From Myxococcota bacterium (lineage in GTDB: Bacteria > Myxococcota_C > UBA6777), in contig JAKLKB010000014.1 in the NCBI GenBank assembly GCA_023150835.1, positions 1 to 64,000 of the forward strand: 64,000 nucleotides of DNA, in the 5' to 3' direction. Below are positions 131 to 7,533 of the stretch, one piece after another. The notes beneath the pieces were generated by a model. The model saw only the letters and a list, made by a program, of their open reading frames with translations, did no database searches and had not been told where the DNA came from. The translations under genes were made by a program, and so were the position numbers. Numbering within the stretch: the stretch's first letter is position 1; each line of letters begins with the position of its first letter.

Positions 131-883
131 ATGTCCCAAACAGCCGAGACCCCCCTCACACGGGAGCAATTGATCCATCAATACCGCCCCTACGTGCGGA
201 ACATCGTCAGCAAGATCATGAAAACGCTCTCTCCCGATGTGGACTTCGATGACCTTGTTGGATACGGAGAGCTCGGCCTGATCGAAGCAGCAGACCGCTT
301 CGACCCCAAGTTCAAAGTCAACTTTATGACCTTCGCTTATTACCGCATACGCGGAGCCGTCTACGATGGACTCCGTGGCATGGGCTGGATCTCCCGATCT
401 CAATACACCAAACTCCGCTACGAAGAACGCGCCAACGCCTACCTCGCCAGCGCCAACGAACGACACGCCTCCAACCACGAACAACACCCCGTCCAAGACG
501 AAGTCAACCAGATCAGCGAAGTCATCGCTGGGCTCGCCTCCATCTTCATCACCTCCCTCGACGCCCAAGAAGGTCTTCAGATCGAAGACGACGACAAAGA
601 CAAAGATCCCCTCAATCAGATCGAAACCAAACAAGCCCAAAAACTCCTGCGCGAAGCCCTCCAAAAACTCCCCGAACAAGAACGCACTCTCCTCGAATAC
701 TACTACTATCGAGACTTTACGCTCGAACAAGCCGGCGAACAACTCGGACTCTCCAAGTCGTGGGCCTCCCGCCTTCACGCACGCGCTATCCAAAAACTCC
801 AAAAGCTCGTCAGCGAACTCGACCCCCTCGCCCCCGAAGAACCCCCCGCCTCCAAACAAGCCCCCCGCGCACGCCGATTTTGA
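131..883 (+). CDS. RNA polymerase sigma factor, FliA/WhiG (sigma-28) type
   Basis: A 250-residue alternative sigma factor that would direct RNA polymerase to a special promoter class. Region 2 is clear at about residues 38-90 (DDLVGYGELGLIEAADRFDP, then TFAYYRIRGAVYDGLR and WISR), the pattern of the FliA/SigB/WhiG group. Region 4 lies at about 175-225 (LPEQERTLLEYYY, then FTLEQAGEQLGLSKSWASRLHARAI), a normal helix-turn-helix. The region between is long and acidic (about 125-165). The proline/lysine-rich tail ends PRARRF. The ATG at 131 gives the expected N-terminus, although no strong ribosome-binding site precedes it. It lies 198 bp upstream of sctI in the same direction, so it is probably a dedicated regulator of the type III secretion genes. 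That role is inferred from position; the family assignment is seen directly. Confidence 0.9.
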   Translation: MSQTAETPLTREQLIHQYRPYVRNIVSKIMKTLSPDVDFDDLVGYGELGLIEAADRFDPKFKVNFMTFAYYRIRGAVYDGLRGMGWISRSQYTKLRYEERANAYLASANERHASNHEQHPVQDEVNQISEVIAGLASIFITSLDAQEGLQIEDDDKDKDPLNQIETKQAQKLLREALQKLPEQERTLLEYYYYRDFTLEQAGEQLGLSKSWASRLHARAIQKLQKLVSELDPLAPEEPPASKQAPRARRF

Positions 884-1081: not shown

Positions 1082-1576
1082 ATGAGCAACCCATTGGCTG
1101 GAGCAGGCGGCGGCGCTGCCAAGATCGCCATGCAACAACTGCAACAGATGCAGAATATGCAACCCAACCAACAAGTGAACACACAAGGCGGAAATGCCGC
1201 CAAGTTCCAACAAAGTATGCAGACCCAACAGATCAACCAACCCCAACAAGTCAACCAAATCAACCAAACACAAAAGGTTGAAAAAACCCGATCTATCCGC
1301 GAGATCTCACAAACACAAAAAACCCAAGGAGCCGATGCTCCTCAAAAACCAAACTCCGCAAAAGGCGTCGAACGTTTCCTTGACGGCCTCAACAACCGCA
1401 AAAACGACGTCGACAAACTGATGAAACAAGCCATGCAAGGCAAATGCTTTAACAACAAAGAACTGCTGGTCCTTCAATACAAAATGTCGACCTTCTCGCT
1501 TGAAATGGACCTCGTCTCCAAAGTCGTTGAAAAAGCCTCCAGCGGCATCAAACAAGCCATGAACACCCAAGTTTGA
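1082..1576 (+). CDS. sctI: Type III secretion inner rod protein SctI (YscI/PrgJ-like)
   Basis: A 164-residue protein. About the first 85 residues are low complexity, rich in Gln and Asn (MQQLQQMQNMQPNQQ). The last 45 residues (FNNKELLVLQYKMSTFSLEM, then DLVSKVVEKASSGIKQ) match the C-terminal pattern of YscI/HrpB/PrgJ inner rod proteins: a Leu-Gln pair, an aromatic-Ser-Leu stretch, the SKVV segment and a terminal helix. These proteins polymerise inside the needle base. The position directly before the sctJ lipoprotein gene is the canonical yscI-yscJ order. Known SctI proteins are about 80-140 residues, so the Q/N-rich N-terminal extension is unusual. A good ribosome-binding site (aggagg) lies 5 bases before the ATG. 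The call rests on the C-terminal motif plus synteny. Confidence 0.8.
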   Translation: MSNPLAGAGGGAAKIAMQQLQQMQNMQPNQQVNTQGGNAAKFQQSMQTQQINQPQQVNQINQTQKVEKTRSIREISQTQKTQGADAPQKPNSAKGVERFLDGLNNRKNDVDKLMKQAMQGKCFNNKELLVLQYKMSTFSLEMDLVSKVVEKASSGIKQAMNTQV

Positions 1577-1872: not shown

Positions 1873-2688
1873 ATGAAGATTCGAAACGATCGCCCCCGCG
1901 CACTCGTGCTCCTGAGCCTGCTGTTGGCTCTCTTTGTGGTCGGTTGTACTGTCTCCATCCAACATGGCCTCTCCGAAAAACAAGCCAACGAGATCCTTGT
2001 TCTCTTGGCCAAAAACAACATCACCGCTACCAAACTTGCCGATACATCGGGCCGCGAAGTCAAATGGACGATCCAAGTAGACGGATCGAACAACGCCCGC
2101 GCCATCCGTATCCTCCAACAACACAACCTCCCCTTCTCCCAAGAAAAAGGCTTTGAAGGTGTGTACGGAAGCACCGGCATGATCCCCACCGCCACCGAAG
2201 AAAAAGCCAAATACCTCATGGCCCTCTCAGGCGAACTCCAAAACACCCTGCGCAGAGTAGAAGGCGTGCTTGATGCGCGTGTTCACATCGTGATCCCACA
2301 AGATCGCATTCTCAAAAGCAAAGACGAACCCAAGGTCTATCCCAAAGCCTCCGTCTTGATCATCAAACGCCCAACATCCGGCCCCGGCATCACGGAAAAA
2401 CAAGTCAAAGATCTCTTGGTCGGCAGCCTCGAAGAACTGACCAGCGCAAACGTGAACGTCATCTTTATCACCCAACGACCTGACGGAGCCTCCGATGACG
2501 CCGGCGCAAGCGGCGATCTCTCCAACTTCCTCGGCGTTCGTGTTGCAGCCGCAGATGCCAACAAATTCAAGATCGTGATCGGCGCACTTTGTGGCTGTAT
2601 CATGCTGTTTCTTGGCCTCTTTGTGTGGTCCTTTTTGCGCTCCGCCTCTTTCAAAAACCAACTGCGCGCCCAAGGGGGCCTCGCCTAA
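1873..2688 (+). CDS. sctJ: Type III secretion inner-membrane ring lipoprotein SctJ (YscJ/PrgK/FliF family)
   Basis: A 271-residue lipoprotein forming the inner-membrane ring of the secretion base. It has a lipoprotein signal (LLLALFVVGC, Cys at about 25). Two ring-building domains follow: residues 30-85 (EKQANEILVLLAKNNITATK, then AIRILQQHNLPF) and 95-200 (GELQNTLRRVEGVLDARVHI, then PKASVLIIKR and a segment ending VKDLLVGSLEEL). A C-terminal transmembrane helix lies at about 235-258. All of this is standard for YscJ, and the length is normal for the family. The ATG at 1873 follows an aggaga ribosome-binding site and gives a correct signal peptide. It is flanked by sctI and the FliG-like gene in the same direction. 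Confidence 0.95.
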   Translation: MKIRNDRPRALVLLSLLLALFVVGCTVSIQHGLSEKQANEILVLLAKNNITATKLADTSGREVKWTIQVDGSNNARAIRILQQHNLPFSQEKGFEGVYGSTGMIPTATEEKAKYLMALSGELQNTLRRVEGVLDARVHIVIPQDRILKSKDEPKVYPKASVLIIKRPTSGPGITEKQVKDLLVGSLEELTSANVNVIFITQRPDGASDDAGASGDLSNFLGVRVAAADANKFKIVIGALCGCIMLFLGLFVWSFLRSASFKNQLRAQGGLA

Positions 2689-2790: not shown

Positions 2791-3849
2791 ATGCGGCATC
2801 TCATCCAACATCTCTCCAAACAACAAGCCATGCTCTTGTTGACGCTTCTCACCCTCGAAGGCGAAAAAGACCTCCCGCTTCTTCGTTTTCTCCCCAAAGA
2901 CGAAGCAAAAAAACTCGAACCCATCGCCCGCCAACTCTGCGAAACCCCTCGCAAACAGCTTCTCCCCCAACTCGTCCAAGAGATCAAACGCCTGATCGCT
3001 GACAGCCATCGCAGCAAACTCGAACAACACGATCCCGCTTGGCTTGCCGAACTCCTTCAACACGAATCCCCCCAAATCATCGCCGTGATCCTCCAAGGAC
3101 TCCCCCGCAACTCTGTCCAACGCATCTACCAAGCCCTCCCTCGACAACTCGCCCAACGCATCCCCCAACAACTTAACCCCGTCGCTCCCGAGATCGCAAA
3201 ACAGATCAAACTCCGCATCGAACAACGTTTCCCTGAACCCCCCGAACACGACCCCGCCTCCCTAAACCTCTCCGCCCTCGCTCACCTCTCCTCCGAAGAA
3301 CTCATCCTTTTGATCCGTGAGATCGGCTTTCGCGAACTCGCAATCGCCTTCAGCAATGTCGGTCGTGGCCCACTCATGGAGCTTTGCCGACGCTTGCGCA
3401 ACGAAGACGCCGAACACCTGCTCAAAGTCGTCCAAAACCTTCCCTCCCTCAACGCCAAACACATCAAATCCGCCCAACGCACCATCCGCGCCATCTCCAA
3501 TGAACACCAATCCCAAAGCGATATGATCGAAGGCGCCGGGATGTACAAGTTCGCAAACGCCCTTCACACCAGCCACCGCGAACTGCTCCATACCCTCGCC
3601 TATCGCCTCCCTTATCCTCTCGGCATCCGCTTTCATCGCCATACTCCACCCCCCCTCACCCCCAACGATATCTTGCGCCTTCACCACGATATCCTCCAAA
3701 CACTCCAATCTCTCGCCGTCGAGCAACGCATCCACCGACCTTGGGCCCAAAAAACCATCGATCTGCCCCCCATCCCCGCAGAACCCGATCCCCCAAGCAC
3801 AAGCGGACGCGACGATTATGACGATACCACCGGCCATATCGGAAACTAA
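2791..3849 (+). CDS. FliG-like protein in the sctK position of the type III secretion operon
   Basis: A 352-residue protein in the slot where Ysc-type operons carry sctK, an accessory cytosolic sorting-platform protein. It resembles the flagellar switch protein FliG. Residues 84-105 (WLAELLQHESPQIIAVILQG, then LP) match the FliG middle-domain signature around EHPQTIAxIL. Residues 157-215 (LSSEELILLIREIGFRELAI and onward to IKSAQRTIRAI) match the pattern of the FliG C-terminal domain, including the AQ-x-x-I ending. The last 50 residues are Pro/Asp-rich and not FliG-like. An ATG at 2791 with gagg upstream is preferred to the TTG one codon earlier. No signal peptide or membrane helix is seen. 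Position and fold suggest it links the ring to the ATPase complex; that is inference. A classical SctK too diverged to recognise is the alternative. Confidence 0.7.
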   Translation: MRHLIQHLSKQQAMLLLTLLTLEGEKDLPLLRFLPKDEAKKLEPIARQLCETPRKQLLPQLVQEIKRLIADSHRSKLEQHDPAWLAELLQHESPQIIAVILQGLPRNSVQRIYQALPRQLAQRIPQQLNPVAPEIAKQIKLRIEQRFPEPPEHDPASLNLSALAHLSSEELILLIREIGFRELAIAFSNVGRGPLMELCRRLRNEDAEHLLKVVQNLPSLNAKHIKSAQRTIRAISNEHQSQSDMIEGAGMYKFANALHTSHRELLHTLAYRLPYPLGIRFHRHTPPPLTPNDILRLHHDILQTLQSLAVEQRIHRPWAQKTIDLPPIPAEPDPPSTSGRDDYDDTTGHIGN

Positions 3850-3955: not shown

Positions 3956-4633
3956 ATGAGCAAAGTCATCAAAGGTGGCGGCTCCACGCTTGGCCCACCC
4001 CCCCCCGCAAGACCCGCCGTCAGCGCCTACAGCGGCACTCCCCCCAGTACCTTCGGCCAACCTGCCCCCAACCGCGTCATCTCTGGCGCCGAAGTCAAAG
4101 CCCAAGGCTCCGCCCAAGAGATCATCCTCAAAGCCCAATCCGACGGCGAACGCATCCGCATGCAAGCCGAAGAATACCGCCAACGCGGCTACGAAGAAGG
4201 CTACCAAGCCGGCTTTGAAGAAGGAAAACAAGAGCTGACCGCCACTATCCTCGATCTCAACCGCCAAAACCAAGAACGTTTCAAGCATTACGAACCCGAA
4301 CTGGTCAAACTCGCCATGCGCATCGCCGAAAAAATCGTCGGCGAACAAGTCAAGATCGCACCCGAAACCGTCGTCGGGATCGTCTCCAAAGCCCTCGGTA
4401 ACGTCCGACACCAACGCGAGATCTATGTCCGCGTCAACCCCGACGATTACGATACCATCCAACAACACAAGCCCATCCTGCTTGAGCGCCTTTCACGCGC
4501 CCAAGATATCGATATCCGACCCGACGCCAACATCTCCCCCGGAAGTTGCCGCATCGAATCAGAACTCGGAACCATCGACGCCAATCTCCAAAATCAACTC
4601 GCAGCCATCGAACGCGCCCTCCTTGGCGGCTAA
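3956..4633 (+). CDS. sctL: Type III secretion ATPase stator/regulator SctL (YscL/FliH family)
   Basis: A 225-residue cytosolic protein that tethers and regulates the SctN ATPase. The N-terminal 40 residues are Pro/Gly-rich and disordered. A charged helix follows at about 55-95 with the FliH-type glycine pattern (RGYEEGYQAGFEEGKQE). The C-terminal half (LVKLAMRIAEKIVGEQVKI, then a beta-rich stretch IYVRVNPDDYD and the ending PGSCRIESELGTIDANLQNQ) is the typical FliH/YscL C-domain; the G-x-C-x-I-E-S-x-x-G-x-I-D sequence is diagnostic. The ribosome-binding site aaggag precedes the ATG at 3956. The gene stops 18 bp before sctN, as expected for translationally linked partners. Confidence 0.92.
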   Translation: MSKVIKGGGSTLGPPPPARPAVSAYSGTPPSTFGQPAPNRVISGAEVKAQGSAQEIILKAQSDGERIRMQAEEYRQRGYEEGYQAGFEEGKQELTATILDLNRQNQERFKHYEPELVKLAMRIAEKIVGEQVKIAPETVVGIVSKALGNVRHQREIYVRVNPDDYDTIQQHKPILLERLSRAQDIDIRPDANISPGSCRIESELGTIDANLQNQLAAIERALLGG

Positions 4634-4651: not shown

Positions 4652-6028
4652 ATGACCGCCGATTACATCTCCGCTGGAATGCGACACGACATGCAAAGAT
4701 TTCCTTCCCTGTTGGATTTCTCCAAATACTACGAACGCCTCGAAAGCCTCACCACCGTCACCAGCCGAGGACGCGTCACCCAAGTCGTCGGACTGGTGAT
4801 CCGCGCTGTCGTTGGCGGCGTTCGCGTCGGTGAGATGGTGATCATCCGCAACGAACACGCGCCCGACCTGCGCGCCGAAGTCGTTGGCTTCCAAGACGAT
4901 CAAGTCATGCTCATGCCCATCGGTGAAGTACGCGGCGTCGGACCCGACTCCGTCGTCATCCCCACCGGAAAGCCCTTCTCCATCCTCTGCGGTGATGCCT
5001 TGCTTGGCCGTGTCCTCAACGGCGTTGGCGAGGCCATGATCGGCCCGCCGCTCTCCCGCGAAGAAGGTCTCTCCGAATGGGCCGTCGAACGCGACCCTCC
5101 CGACCCCATGATCCGAAAACGCGTCCTCGAACACCTTCCCCTCGGCGTTCGCGCTATCGATGGCCTTCTTACCGTCGGAGAAGGCCAACGTGTCGGCCTC
5201 TTCGCAGGTTCTGGCGTCGGAAAGTCCACACTCATGGGACAGATCGCTCGCAACACCTCCGCCGAGATCAACGTCATCTGTCTGATCGGTGAGCGTGGAC
5301 GCGAAGTCCTCGACTTTATCGAAGAATCCCTCGGCGAAGAAGGCATGCGCCGCTCCGTCGTCGTCTGCGCAACGTCCGACACTCCCTCGCTCGTTCGCCT
5401 CAAATCCGCTTTTGTCTCCACCGCCATCGCTGAGTTTTTCCGCGCACAAGGGCGAAAAGTCCTGTTTATGATGGACTCCACCACCCGCTTTGCTCGCGCA
5501 CAACGCGAGATCGGCCTCGCTGTCGGCGAACCCCCCGCACGCCAAGGCTACCCCCCCTCCGTCTTTGCCATGCTCCCTCGCCTACTCGAACGCACCGGCA
5601 ACGACGACAAAGGCTCCATTACCGCCCTCTACACCGTCCTCGTCGCAGGGGGCGATATGGAAGAGCCGATCTCCGACGAAGTGCGCGGGATCTTGGACGG
5701 CCATATCATCCTCAACCGCGCTCTCGGGGCCAAAAACCACTGGCCCGCCATCGATGTCCTCCCCTCCCTCAGCCGCGTGATGACCGGATTGGAAACCATC
5801 CAAAAACGCCATCTCAAAGCCGCCAACGAACTTCGCCGCGTCCTCGCCGCTTACAAGAAAAACGAAGATCTGATCCTCCTCGGAGCCTACACCCCCGGCA
5901 CCGACCCCGAAACCGATTACGCCATCGAAAAAGTCGAAGAATGCAACACCTTCCTCAAACAAGGTCTTCACGATCGCCCCTCTTGGGACGAAACCATCGA
6001 ACACCTCACGGGCATCTTTGGCCTCTAA
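4652..6028 (+). CDS. sctN: Type III secretion ATPase SctN (YscN/InvC/FliI family)
   Basis: A 458-residue F1-type hexameric ATPase that unfolds and feeds substrates to the export gate at the cytosolic face. The Walker A motif is at about 186-193 (GSGVGKST) and Walker B at about 270-276 (VLFMMDS, followed by TTRFARAQREIGLAVGEPPA). The arginine-finger region and the family segment GYPPSVFAMLPRLLERTGN are present. The N-terminal beta-barrel (about 30-100) precedes the catalytic core, and the C-terminal domain ends HLTGIFGL. Length is normal. It lies between sctL and sctO. FliI and SctN are close relatives; the sctI/sctJ neighbours decide for the non-flagellar type. Confidence 0.95.
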   Translation: MTADYISAGMRHDMQRFPSLLDFSKYYERLESLTTVTSRGRVTQVVGLVIRAVVGGVRVGEMVIIRNEHAPDLRAEVVGFQDDQVMLMPIGEVRGVGPDSVVIPTGKPFSILCGDALLGRVLNGVGEAMIGPPLSREEGLSEWAVERDPPDPMIRKRVLEHLPLGVRAIDGLLTVGEGQRVGLFAGSGVGKSTLMGQIARNTSAEINVICLIGERGREVLDFIEESLGEEGMRRSVVVCATSDTPSLVRLKSAFVSTAIAEFFRAQGRKVLFMMDSTTRFARAQREIGLAVGEPPARQGYPPSVFAMLPRLLERTGNDDKGSITALYTVLVAGGDMEEPISDEVRGILDGHIILNRALGAKNHWPAIDVLPSLSRVMTGLETIQKRHLKAANELRRVLAAYKKNEDLILLGAYTPGTDPETDYAIEKVEECNTFLKQGLHDRPSWDETIEHLTGIFGL

Positions 6029-6060: not shown

Positions 6061-6546
6061 ATGCCGACTTACCGACTGCAAACTCTCCTCGACTTGCGCG
6101 AACGCACCGAAAAAGAAAAAAAGGACGCCCTCGCCGAAGCCCAGAAAAAGCATCGACAAGAGCAACAAAAAGCGGACGATCTCCGAAAACAAGACAAGCA
6201 GATGCGCGAGACCCGCAAACAAAAAGAAGATGAGCTTTTTTTCAAGATGCAAGCAGGTGAACTCGGCGTCAAAGACTACAACATGGGCGAGCGGTACATC
6301 AAACGCCTTGAACGCGAGATCGAAGAATTCCAAAGCGTGATCAAAGAACAAGACAAACGCGTCATCTTCGCGCAACAAGAAGTCGATTGGTGTCAAGAAG
6401 AACTCCTCAAAGCCACTCAAGAGGTCAAAGCCCTCGAAAAACACAAGGAAAAGTGGCTCGAAGAGTACAAAAAAGAGATGGCCGCCAAAGAGGAACTGGC
6501 CCAAGAAGAGATCGCCACCACTCTCTTCCTCTTCGGCAAAAAATAA
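6061..6546 (+). CDS. sctO: Type III secretion stalk protein SctO (YscO/FliJ-like coiled coil)
   Basis: A 161-residue, almost wholly helical coiled-coil protein, very rich in Lys, Glu and Gln with no long hydrophobic segment. The opening PTYRLQTLLDLRERTEKEKK is typical of FliJ/YscO proteins, which insert into the SctN hexamer like the gamma subunit of F1-ATPase and connect it to the export gate. Its place immediately after sctN (32-bp gap) and its size (YscO and FliJ are about 150 residues) support the call, since coiled-coil similarity alone would be weak. The ATG at 6061 is preceded by ggagc. Confidence 0.85.
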   Translation: MPTYRLQTLLDLRERTEKEKKDALAEAQKKHRQEQQKADDLRKQDKQMRETRKQKEDELFFKMQAGELGVKDYNMGERYIKRLEREIEEFQSVIKEQDKRVIFAQQEVDWCQEELLKATQEVKALEKHKEKWLEEYKKEMAAKEELAQEEIATTLFLFGKK

Positions 6547-6636: not shown

Positions 6637-7533
6637 ATGACGCGTATCAACGAATCACAGGTTCAACAGCAGCAACAAGCGCAGCAGGCGAACCAAGCAC
6701 GCGACTCCCAAGCCCCTCCACCCGACTCCGAACGCGCCTTCGCTGCGCGTCTCAAAAAACAAGACGAAAACAAACCCACCCAACAACCCAAAAACGAAAC
6801 CAGCACCTCCACCTCCACCAAAGACGCGGATTCCGCCAAAACACGCTTGCTCCAAAATCAATCCTTTAGCCTCTCGGGTCGCAAAGGCACCGTCTCCGAT
6901 CTCCAAGCCCGCCTCAACGCACAAGAAGGCGCACAAGGCGCAAAAGGCAAAGGTCTTGACGCACAAAAAGGCGCAGAGACCGAGGCTCTCGATGCAAAAG
7001 GACTCGATGGCAAAGGACTCGACGGAAAGTCCGAAGGTATGGGCATCGGTAAAGAACTTGGTGCCGAAGGCGAGATGAAACTGTCCATCGACGGAAAGCC
7101 CGATCTTGCCGTCGGCATGGGTGGCCTGCAAGGTGGTGGTCAAATCCAACAAAGCGGTCAGATCGCCACTTCCGCAACATTTGAAGTGCGTGGTGCCAAG
7201 ATCCCCACCGCCATGATGGAAAAAATGATGGAGCAAGCCCGTGTCGGCGTCAACGAAGTCGGCGCTCCCGAATTCCAATTCGACCTCAAAGGCGATGTCC
7301 TCGGCGGAATGAAGATGCGCATCAGCATGGAAAACGGCCAACTCAAAGCCATCTTCGTCGCCGAAAACAGCGAAGTCCGCAAGTTTGTGGACGGAAACCT
7401 CAAAGACCTCGAACGCAACCTCCAAGATCGCGGGATCTTTATCAAAGACCTCCAAGTCCGCGACCCCGAAGAAGACCGCCGTCAACGCCAACGCGAACAA
7501 CACCAGCGCGACCGCGAACAAGCGATGGGCTGA
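6637..7533 (+). CDS. sctP: Type III secretion needle-length/substrate-switch protein SctP (YscP/FliK-like)
   Basis: A 298-residue protein. The first 175 residues are a low-complexity secreted-ruler-like region rich in Gln, Lys and Gly, with a short internal repeat of the form DAKGLDGKGLDGK at about 114-128. Residues 200-285 form the conserved FliK/YscP C-terminal domain (FQFDLKGDVLGGMKMRISME, then LKAIFVAENSEVRKFVDGNL and LERNLQDRGIFIKDLQV), which in known systems touches SctU to switch substrate class. An Arg/Gln-rich tail follows. The ATG at 6637 with aaggag upstream is preferred to a TTG nine codons earlier. It ends the co-directional secretion block; the next gene is convergent. Confidence 0.82.
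   Translation: MTRINESQVQQQQQAQQANQARDSQAPPPDSERAFAARLKKQDENKPTQQPKNETSTSTSTKDADSAKTRLLQNQSFSLSGRKGTVSDLQARLNAQEGAQGAKGKGLDAQKGAETEALDAKGLDGKGLDGKSEGMGIGKELGAEGEMKLSIDGKPDLAVGMGGLQGGGQIQQSGQIATSATFEVRGAKIPTAMMEKMMEQARVGVNEVGAPEFQFDLKGDVLGGMKMRISMENGQLKAIFVAENSEVRKFVDGNLKDLERNLQDRGIFIKDLQVRDPEEDRRQRQREQHQRDREQAMG

Follow-up and report, generated by a model that had tools for sequence, protein, structure and literature searches.

A FliG-type gene in the sctJ-sctL slot

Between sctJ and sctL, the canonical place of sctK in type III secretion systems (T3SSs), the stretch of 64,000 nucleotides analyzed here (the window) carries a gene that a first-pass annotation had read as encoding a FliG-like protein in a non-flagellar operon. 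Is this protein a homologue of flagellar FliG, and what would it do in such an operon? The open reading frame begins with an ATG at 2791, its stop codon ends at 3849 on the + strand, and it encodes 352 amino acids, exactly as annotated. It belongs to the following operon, read on the + strand:

131..883, + strand: FliA/WhiG-type sigma factor, head of the cluster (Sigma70_r4 2.8e-15, r2 2e-12; FliA_WhiG TIGR02479 6.1e-46)
1082..1576, + strand: sctI, inner rod (T3SS_basalb_I 7.9e-6, NF038054 SctI 7.3e-5; both under the curated cut-off)
1873..2688, + strand: sctJ, inner-membrane ring lipoprotein (YscJ_FliF 2.7e-21; TIGR02544 III_secr_YscJ 1.7e-45 versus FliF 9.2e-12)
2791..3849, + strand: FliG-type protein in the SctK slot (Pfam, family profile, hhalign, AlphaFold model)
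3956..4633, + strand: sctL, stator (FliH 6.1e-22, T3SS_SCTL 5e-5; TIGR02499 2.7e-27, over cut-off)
4652..6028, + strand: sctN, ATPase (TIGR02546 III_secr_ATP 602.1 bits versus FliI 589.7)
6061..6546, + strand: sctO (YscO-like 2.1e-22)
6637..7533, + strand: sctP/fliK-type protein (Flg_hook 1.6e-11)

The operon types as non-flagellar: SctJ scores best as its non-flagellar form, SctL exceeds the non-flagellar cut-off, and for SctN the non-flagellar ATPase model outscores the FliI model only slightly. Its gene order, sctJ-[FliG]-L-N-O-P, is shared with fliF-G-H-I-J-K of E. coli. The operon read contained no genes for a secretin, needle or translocon. In several related operons a FliA/WhiG-type sigma factor gene again lies just ahead of sctI (window 131-883; L005 7353-8105; L045 7866-8645; L046 10957-11790; L048 11545-12378), an arrangement that recalls flagellar gene control.

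The T3SS genes of the source genome fall into at least three blocks, located on contigs C132 (I-J-FliG-L-N-O-P), C113 (Q-FliO-R-S-T-U) and C131 (V beside a TPR protein). There is one full-length SctV and one SctQ, and the export parts include SctU together with R, S and T reading frames on C113. The system is probably a needleless, Myxo-type non-flagellar T3SS. Upstream of the first block in the relative KLAP109 lie genes that cannot be recognized as core T3SS genes. Separately, a 788-residue frame (L011 1157-3523, contig C25) reads as NadC (nicotinate-nucleotide pyrophosphorylase) joined through a repeat linker to the C-terminal cytosolic domain of FlhA/SctV (FHIPEP positions 357-655, E 4.2e-40); such a soluble fusion of export gate and enzyme would be odd.

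Homology to FliG in sequence and predicted structure

Pfam FliG_M is matched by residues 82-147 of the single sequence at 31.3 bits, against a cut-off of 25 (E 2.4e-7), and the middle-domain motif reported in the first-pass annotation is thus real. FliG_C is matched as a whole-protein score of 27.3 bits (cut-off 23.3, E 4.6e-6), and a search of the PDB returns FliG matches only (best E 7.7e-6). A profile built on an alignment of 33 family members likewise has significant matches only to FliG among PDB sequences (best 1.9e-19), and both the middle and the C domain reach significance. The annotated C-domain-like segment ending in AQ..I, weak in the lone sequence, gains significance once the family profile is used (i-E 1.3e-6 for the second domain). 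Pfam detects FliG_C in 29 of the 33 members (best 3.5e-15), FliG_M in 23 and FliG_N in 6 (best 1.2e-4). Comparison of the family profile with 38 flagellar FliGs by hhalign yields a probability of 99.2% (E 3.3e-19) over an alignment that spans the N, M and C domains.

The same 33-member alignment underlies an AlphaFold model with a mean pLDDT of 91.7 (an earlier model from 5 sequences, pLDDT 59, was discarded). Foldseek places FliG at the top (E 2.5e-3, probability 1.00), with no match below 1e-3 and a poor whole-chain superposition. Poor superposition of this kind can arise with a flexible multi-domain chain. Rows 1-17 of a second structural comparison are all FliG, and the domains superpose well when taken singly (middle domain, Z 11.9 and 1.3 Å over 74 residues; C domain, Z 9.1 and 2.5 Å over 87 residues). 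PscK is not among the rows of the fold search, an absence that excludes nothing. Profile search and structure prediction thus both lead to FliG, and at the level of sequence the product of 2791-3849 is confirmed as a genuine FliG homologue in which the N-M-C domain order appears to be kept. Its parts are:

2791..3012, + strand: FliG_N-like domain, shortened, residues 1-74 (FliG_N in 6/33 members; inside the hhalign alignment; ~37 residues missing)
3013..3234, + strand: FliG middle domain, residues 75-148 (FliG_M 2.4e-7; structural match to 4fq0_C)
3064-3075, + strand: E-S-P-Q motif within the middle domain
3259..3498, + strand: FliG C-domain-like helices, residues 157-236 (not preceded by ARM_C; torque charges lost)
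3499..3750, + strand: family-specific C-terminal helical extension, residues 237-320 (alignment and model)

The annotated C-domain segment can thus be placed at residues 157-236, with the refinement that the ARM_C ahead of it is missing and that ∼80 residues follow it.

Spread and gene neighborhood of the family

The FliG-type protein is present in all five genomes analyzed for the small source phylum, between sctJ and sctL in the loci read. When a profile of these five is searched, long relatives turn up in five genomes from other lineages (E 1e-51 to 3e-25); its other matches are mostly to the middle domain, in FliG-sized frames. Conservation in five of five genomes of the phylum and in other lineages is therefore far above chance. 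Within one further phylum, to which one of these five other genomes belongs and which is represented by 195 genomes, 127 have a match (about 116 at E ∼1e-10 or better), and some have, besides the FliG-type protein, a second FliG match that is flagellar in type. One family of this second phylum consists largely of 9-13 Mb genomes and is probably Myxococcaceae. In this family (f29; L048, L072-L080) the protein carries a long Pro/Ala/Arg-rich tail, with open frames of ∼460-830 residues in most members.

Comparison with other T3SS loci, which the annotation had proposed, bears out the association, as the gene nearly always adjoins sctJ or sctL. All eight long loci have SctL on one flank and SctI or SctJ on the opposite flank. 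Among 30 short loci, 27 have SctJ or SctL beside the gene, and of the remaining three at least two break off close to it. A tblastn search of plasmids with the FliG-type protein gave no match.

A flagellum-like sorting platform

SctQ of the source genome (contig C113) contains a FliM middle domain (1.7e-11) and a FliN-type end, and the FliM middle domain recurs in the SctQs of three other such loci (8.9e-14, 2.7e-15 and 1.9e-18). It is absent at E values up to 1 from five of five canonical SctQs, several of them partial sequences, taken from plasmids of Paracoccus, Halomonas, Ensifer, Phyllobacterium and Leisingera. A GG-containing loop resembling the GGxG motif of FliM is found in all four SctQs of the Myxo-type systems; in the flagellum, this motif meets the EHPQ motif of FliG (PMC7355467).

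A FliO gene follows sctQ and precedes sctR in the source genome and in a second genome, G135:

L012:3566-4825, - strand: FliO domain, source genome (9.1e-10)
L046:4078-4383, - strand: FliO domain, G135 (1.8e-10)

The order Q-FliO-R-S-T resembles that of flagellar fliM/N-O-P-Q-R. The position of FliO between SctQ and SctR fits a 2025 report of FliO in Myxococcota T3SSs, according to which further flagellar homologues may still be undetected in Myxo-type systems (PMC12403147). FliM-type SctQ and FliO together support a sorting platform that is flagellum-like, in line with the flagellum-derived platform that the annotation had envisaged. In the SctJs of the family we found no common C-terminal motif that would represent a FliF-like docking tail, nor was an SctD located. 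Two related T3SS operons are accompanied by FHA/YscD_cpl proteins of 700-750 residues with TPR repeats and a C-terminal PEGA domain, which are not ordinary SctDs:

L046:14928-17177, - strand: FHA/YscD_cpl-TPR-PEGA protein
L047:2458-4560, + strand: FHA/YscD_cpl-TPR-PEGA protein

These partners bear on the origin of the FliG-type gene. If a copy of flagellar FliG had taken the place of an earlier SctK in an ancestral system of this type, one could account for the long branch that connects the family to FliG in the tree, in which no specific sister lineage is resolved. The systems have retained FliO and a FliM-type SctQ and their gene order is flagellar, and piecemeal recruitment is less economical because all three are present. 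We regard such a replacement as unlikely.

Relation to SctK

Canonical SctKs encoded in the same sctJ-sctL slot, drawn not from virulence plasmids but from those of Paracoccus, Ensifer, Leisingera, Phyllobacterium, Mycetohabitans and Halomonas, give a weak YscK match, a HrpB4 match or none. Profile comparison of these SctKs with the FliG-type family or with FliG returns probabilities of 0.1-2% (0.7-2% for the family), values obtained with shallow SctK alignments. YscK (PF06578) has one sub-threshold match across 386 genomes and none in the source genome. Because the profile comparison gave nothing, only gene position and presumed function suggest a link between the FliG-type protein and SctK. 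The first-pass reading therefore stands as regards a FliG-like protein that occupies the SctK slot in a non-flagellar T3SS, and neither of the two refuting conditions set out in the annotation overturned it; a shared ancestry of SctK and FliG is not shown by these comparisons.

It is also quite improbable that the gene encodes a classical SctK that resembles FliG by shared helical-repeat architecture and does not descend from it. The slot is that of canonical SctK, and helical-repeat folds readily give middling matches; against this, two domains are independently significant by profile, the N-M-C order appears to be kept, and canonical SctKs stay at the low probabilities given above. NF004606 (weak, E 0.07), considered as a lead to a chlamydial SctK, proved to match FliF in the first half and FliG in the final 45 residues; it is the known chlamydial FliF-FliG fusion, and hence no chlamydial SctK.

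Departures from motor FliG

In a combined alignment, ARM_C (E. coli residues 196-235) has an occupancy of 5% in the family versus 100% in flagellar FliGs. The torque charges Lys-264, Arg-281, Asp-288, Asp-289 and Arg-297, conserved or replaced by an equivalent charge in 37-38 of 38 flagellar FliGs, are not kept in the FliG-type family, which has lost ∼37 residues of the N domain and gained ∼80 at the C terminus. At the position of the EHPQ motif, Glu is present in 33 of 33 members and Pro in 23; His and Gln are not kept, the latter being mostly Arg or Ala. The counterpart in the window protein reads ESPQ.

We searched the source genome (93% complete) for a flagellum and found no flagellar operon, no second FliG and no rod or hook genes; FliG_M occurs once, and a profile search that detected its positive controls found no Flg_bb_rod. 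A leftover or misplaced motor gene, whose product would be the genuine FliG of a flagellum now lost or encoded elsewhere, can be dismissed as barely credible: FliG_M and FliG_C do both exceed their Pfam cut-offs, but the FliG equivalog TIGR00207 reaches 23.5 bits against a cut-off of 226.7, the family lacks torque charges and ARM_C, the gene is conserved in T3SS operons, no rod or hook genes were found in the source genome, and some genomes have a separate flagellar-type FliG match as well. Because ARM_C and the torque charges are lost, the family is a single clade (FastTree support 1.0) and no flagellum was detected, the FliG-type protein is not a functional motor FliG, nor is its gene a stray from a flagellar operon.

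Proposed role

The gene product is likely a non-rotating, FliG-derived adaptor that connects the inner-membrane ring to the FliM-type sorting platform of a Myxo-type T3SS. Holding the sorting platform is the most likely function because the FliG middle domain and the FliM domain of SctQ have both been retained. The FliG-type middle domain would dock on the FliM-like part of SctQ, and docking would hold SctQ, SctL and SctN under the export gate, the job of SctK elsewhere. Anchoring at the membrane may proceed via SctJ or via an FHA-type SctD.

In the assembly of FliG rings, each middle domain stacks on the ARM_C of the neighboring subunit (PMC7355467). With no ARM_C, the FliG-type protein should therefore not form a FliG-like ring; the loss of ARM_C would favor separate pods over a continuous C-ring, and could explain in structural terms why the platform of injectisomes consists of pods and not of a ring. 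A further step is possible, though we hold it with less confidence than the adaptor role and would not bet on it: the protein may represent a direct intermediate between FliG and SctK, in which loss of ARM_C and of the torque surface broke the rotor ring into pods, and which later shrank into a SctK that is no longer recognizable.

Comparison with known systems

Abby and Rocha (2012) described Myxo systems as devoid of FliG (PMC3459982), Notti et al. (2015) described OrgA (SctK) as having no clear flagellar homologue (PMC4443714), and a 2023 review lists the parts of T3SS* without SctK or FliG (PMC10433427). We found no paper on a FliG-type protein in a Myxo-type T3SS, in a search that covered few subscription papers. 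The FliG-type component described here corrects the published absence of FliG from Myxo T3SSs (PMC3459982). That survey founded the flagellum-first view and has the Myxo systems as the earliest-branching ones (PMC3459982); the FliG-type adaptor is a plausible surviving trace of an origin of injectisomes from flagella. Adaptor, FliM-type SctQ and FliO would together make up a nearly complete, non-rotating flagellar switch stack in Myxo systems, and the transition from FliG to SctK becomes testable. If the Myxococcaceae-like genomes are such, our findings suggest an overlooked T3SS* component in prey lysis by Myxococcus xanthus.

The protein is like FliG in its apparent N-M-C order, its middle-domain fold (1.3 Å), its C-domain helices and its slot after FliF/SctJ and before FliH/SctL. 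Unlike FliG, it has no ARM_C, a short N domain, no torque charges and a C-terminal addition, and it belongs to a non-flagellar T3SS with no flagellum detected. With SctK (YscK/PscK/OrgA/HrpB4) it shares the sctJ-sctL slot and the presumed function of an adaptor from the ring to SctQ; it differs in length (352 versus about 209-235 residues), in the lack of any sequence or profile similarity found, and in its FliM-type SctQ partner. The closest parallel so far is the FliF-FliG fusion of chlamydiae, in which a FliG middle domain likewise occurs apart from a functional flagellum; there the M domain only is fused to a reduced FliF, whereas here a free N-M-C protein occupies the SctK slot (PMC4768692). 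In its set of genes (sctI/J/L/N/Q/R/S/T/U/V) the system resembles Myxo-type T3SSs, including the needleless T3SS* of Myxococcus xanthus (PMC3459982, PMC12075869, PMC10433427), and it differs from the published ones, for which FliG was stated to be absent (PMC3459982) or SctK and FliG are unlisted (PMC10433427), by its FliG-type component.
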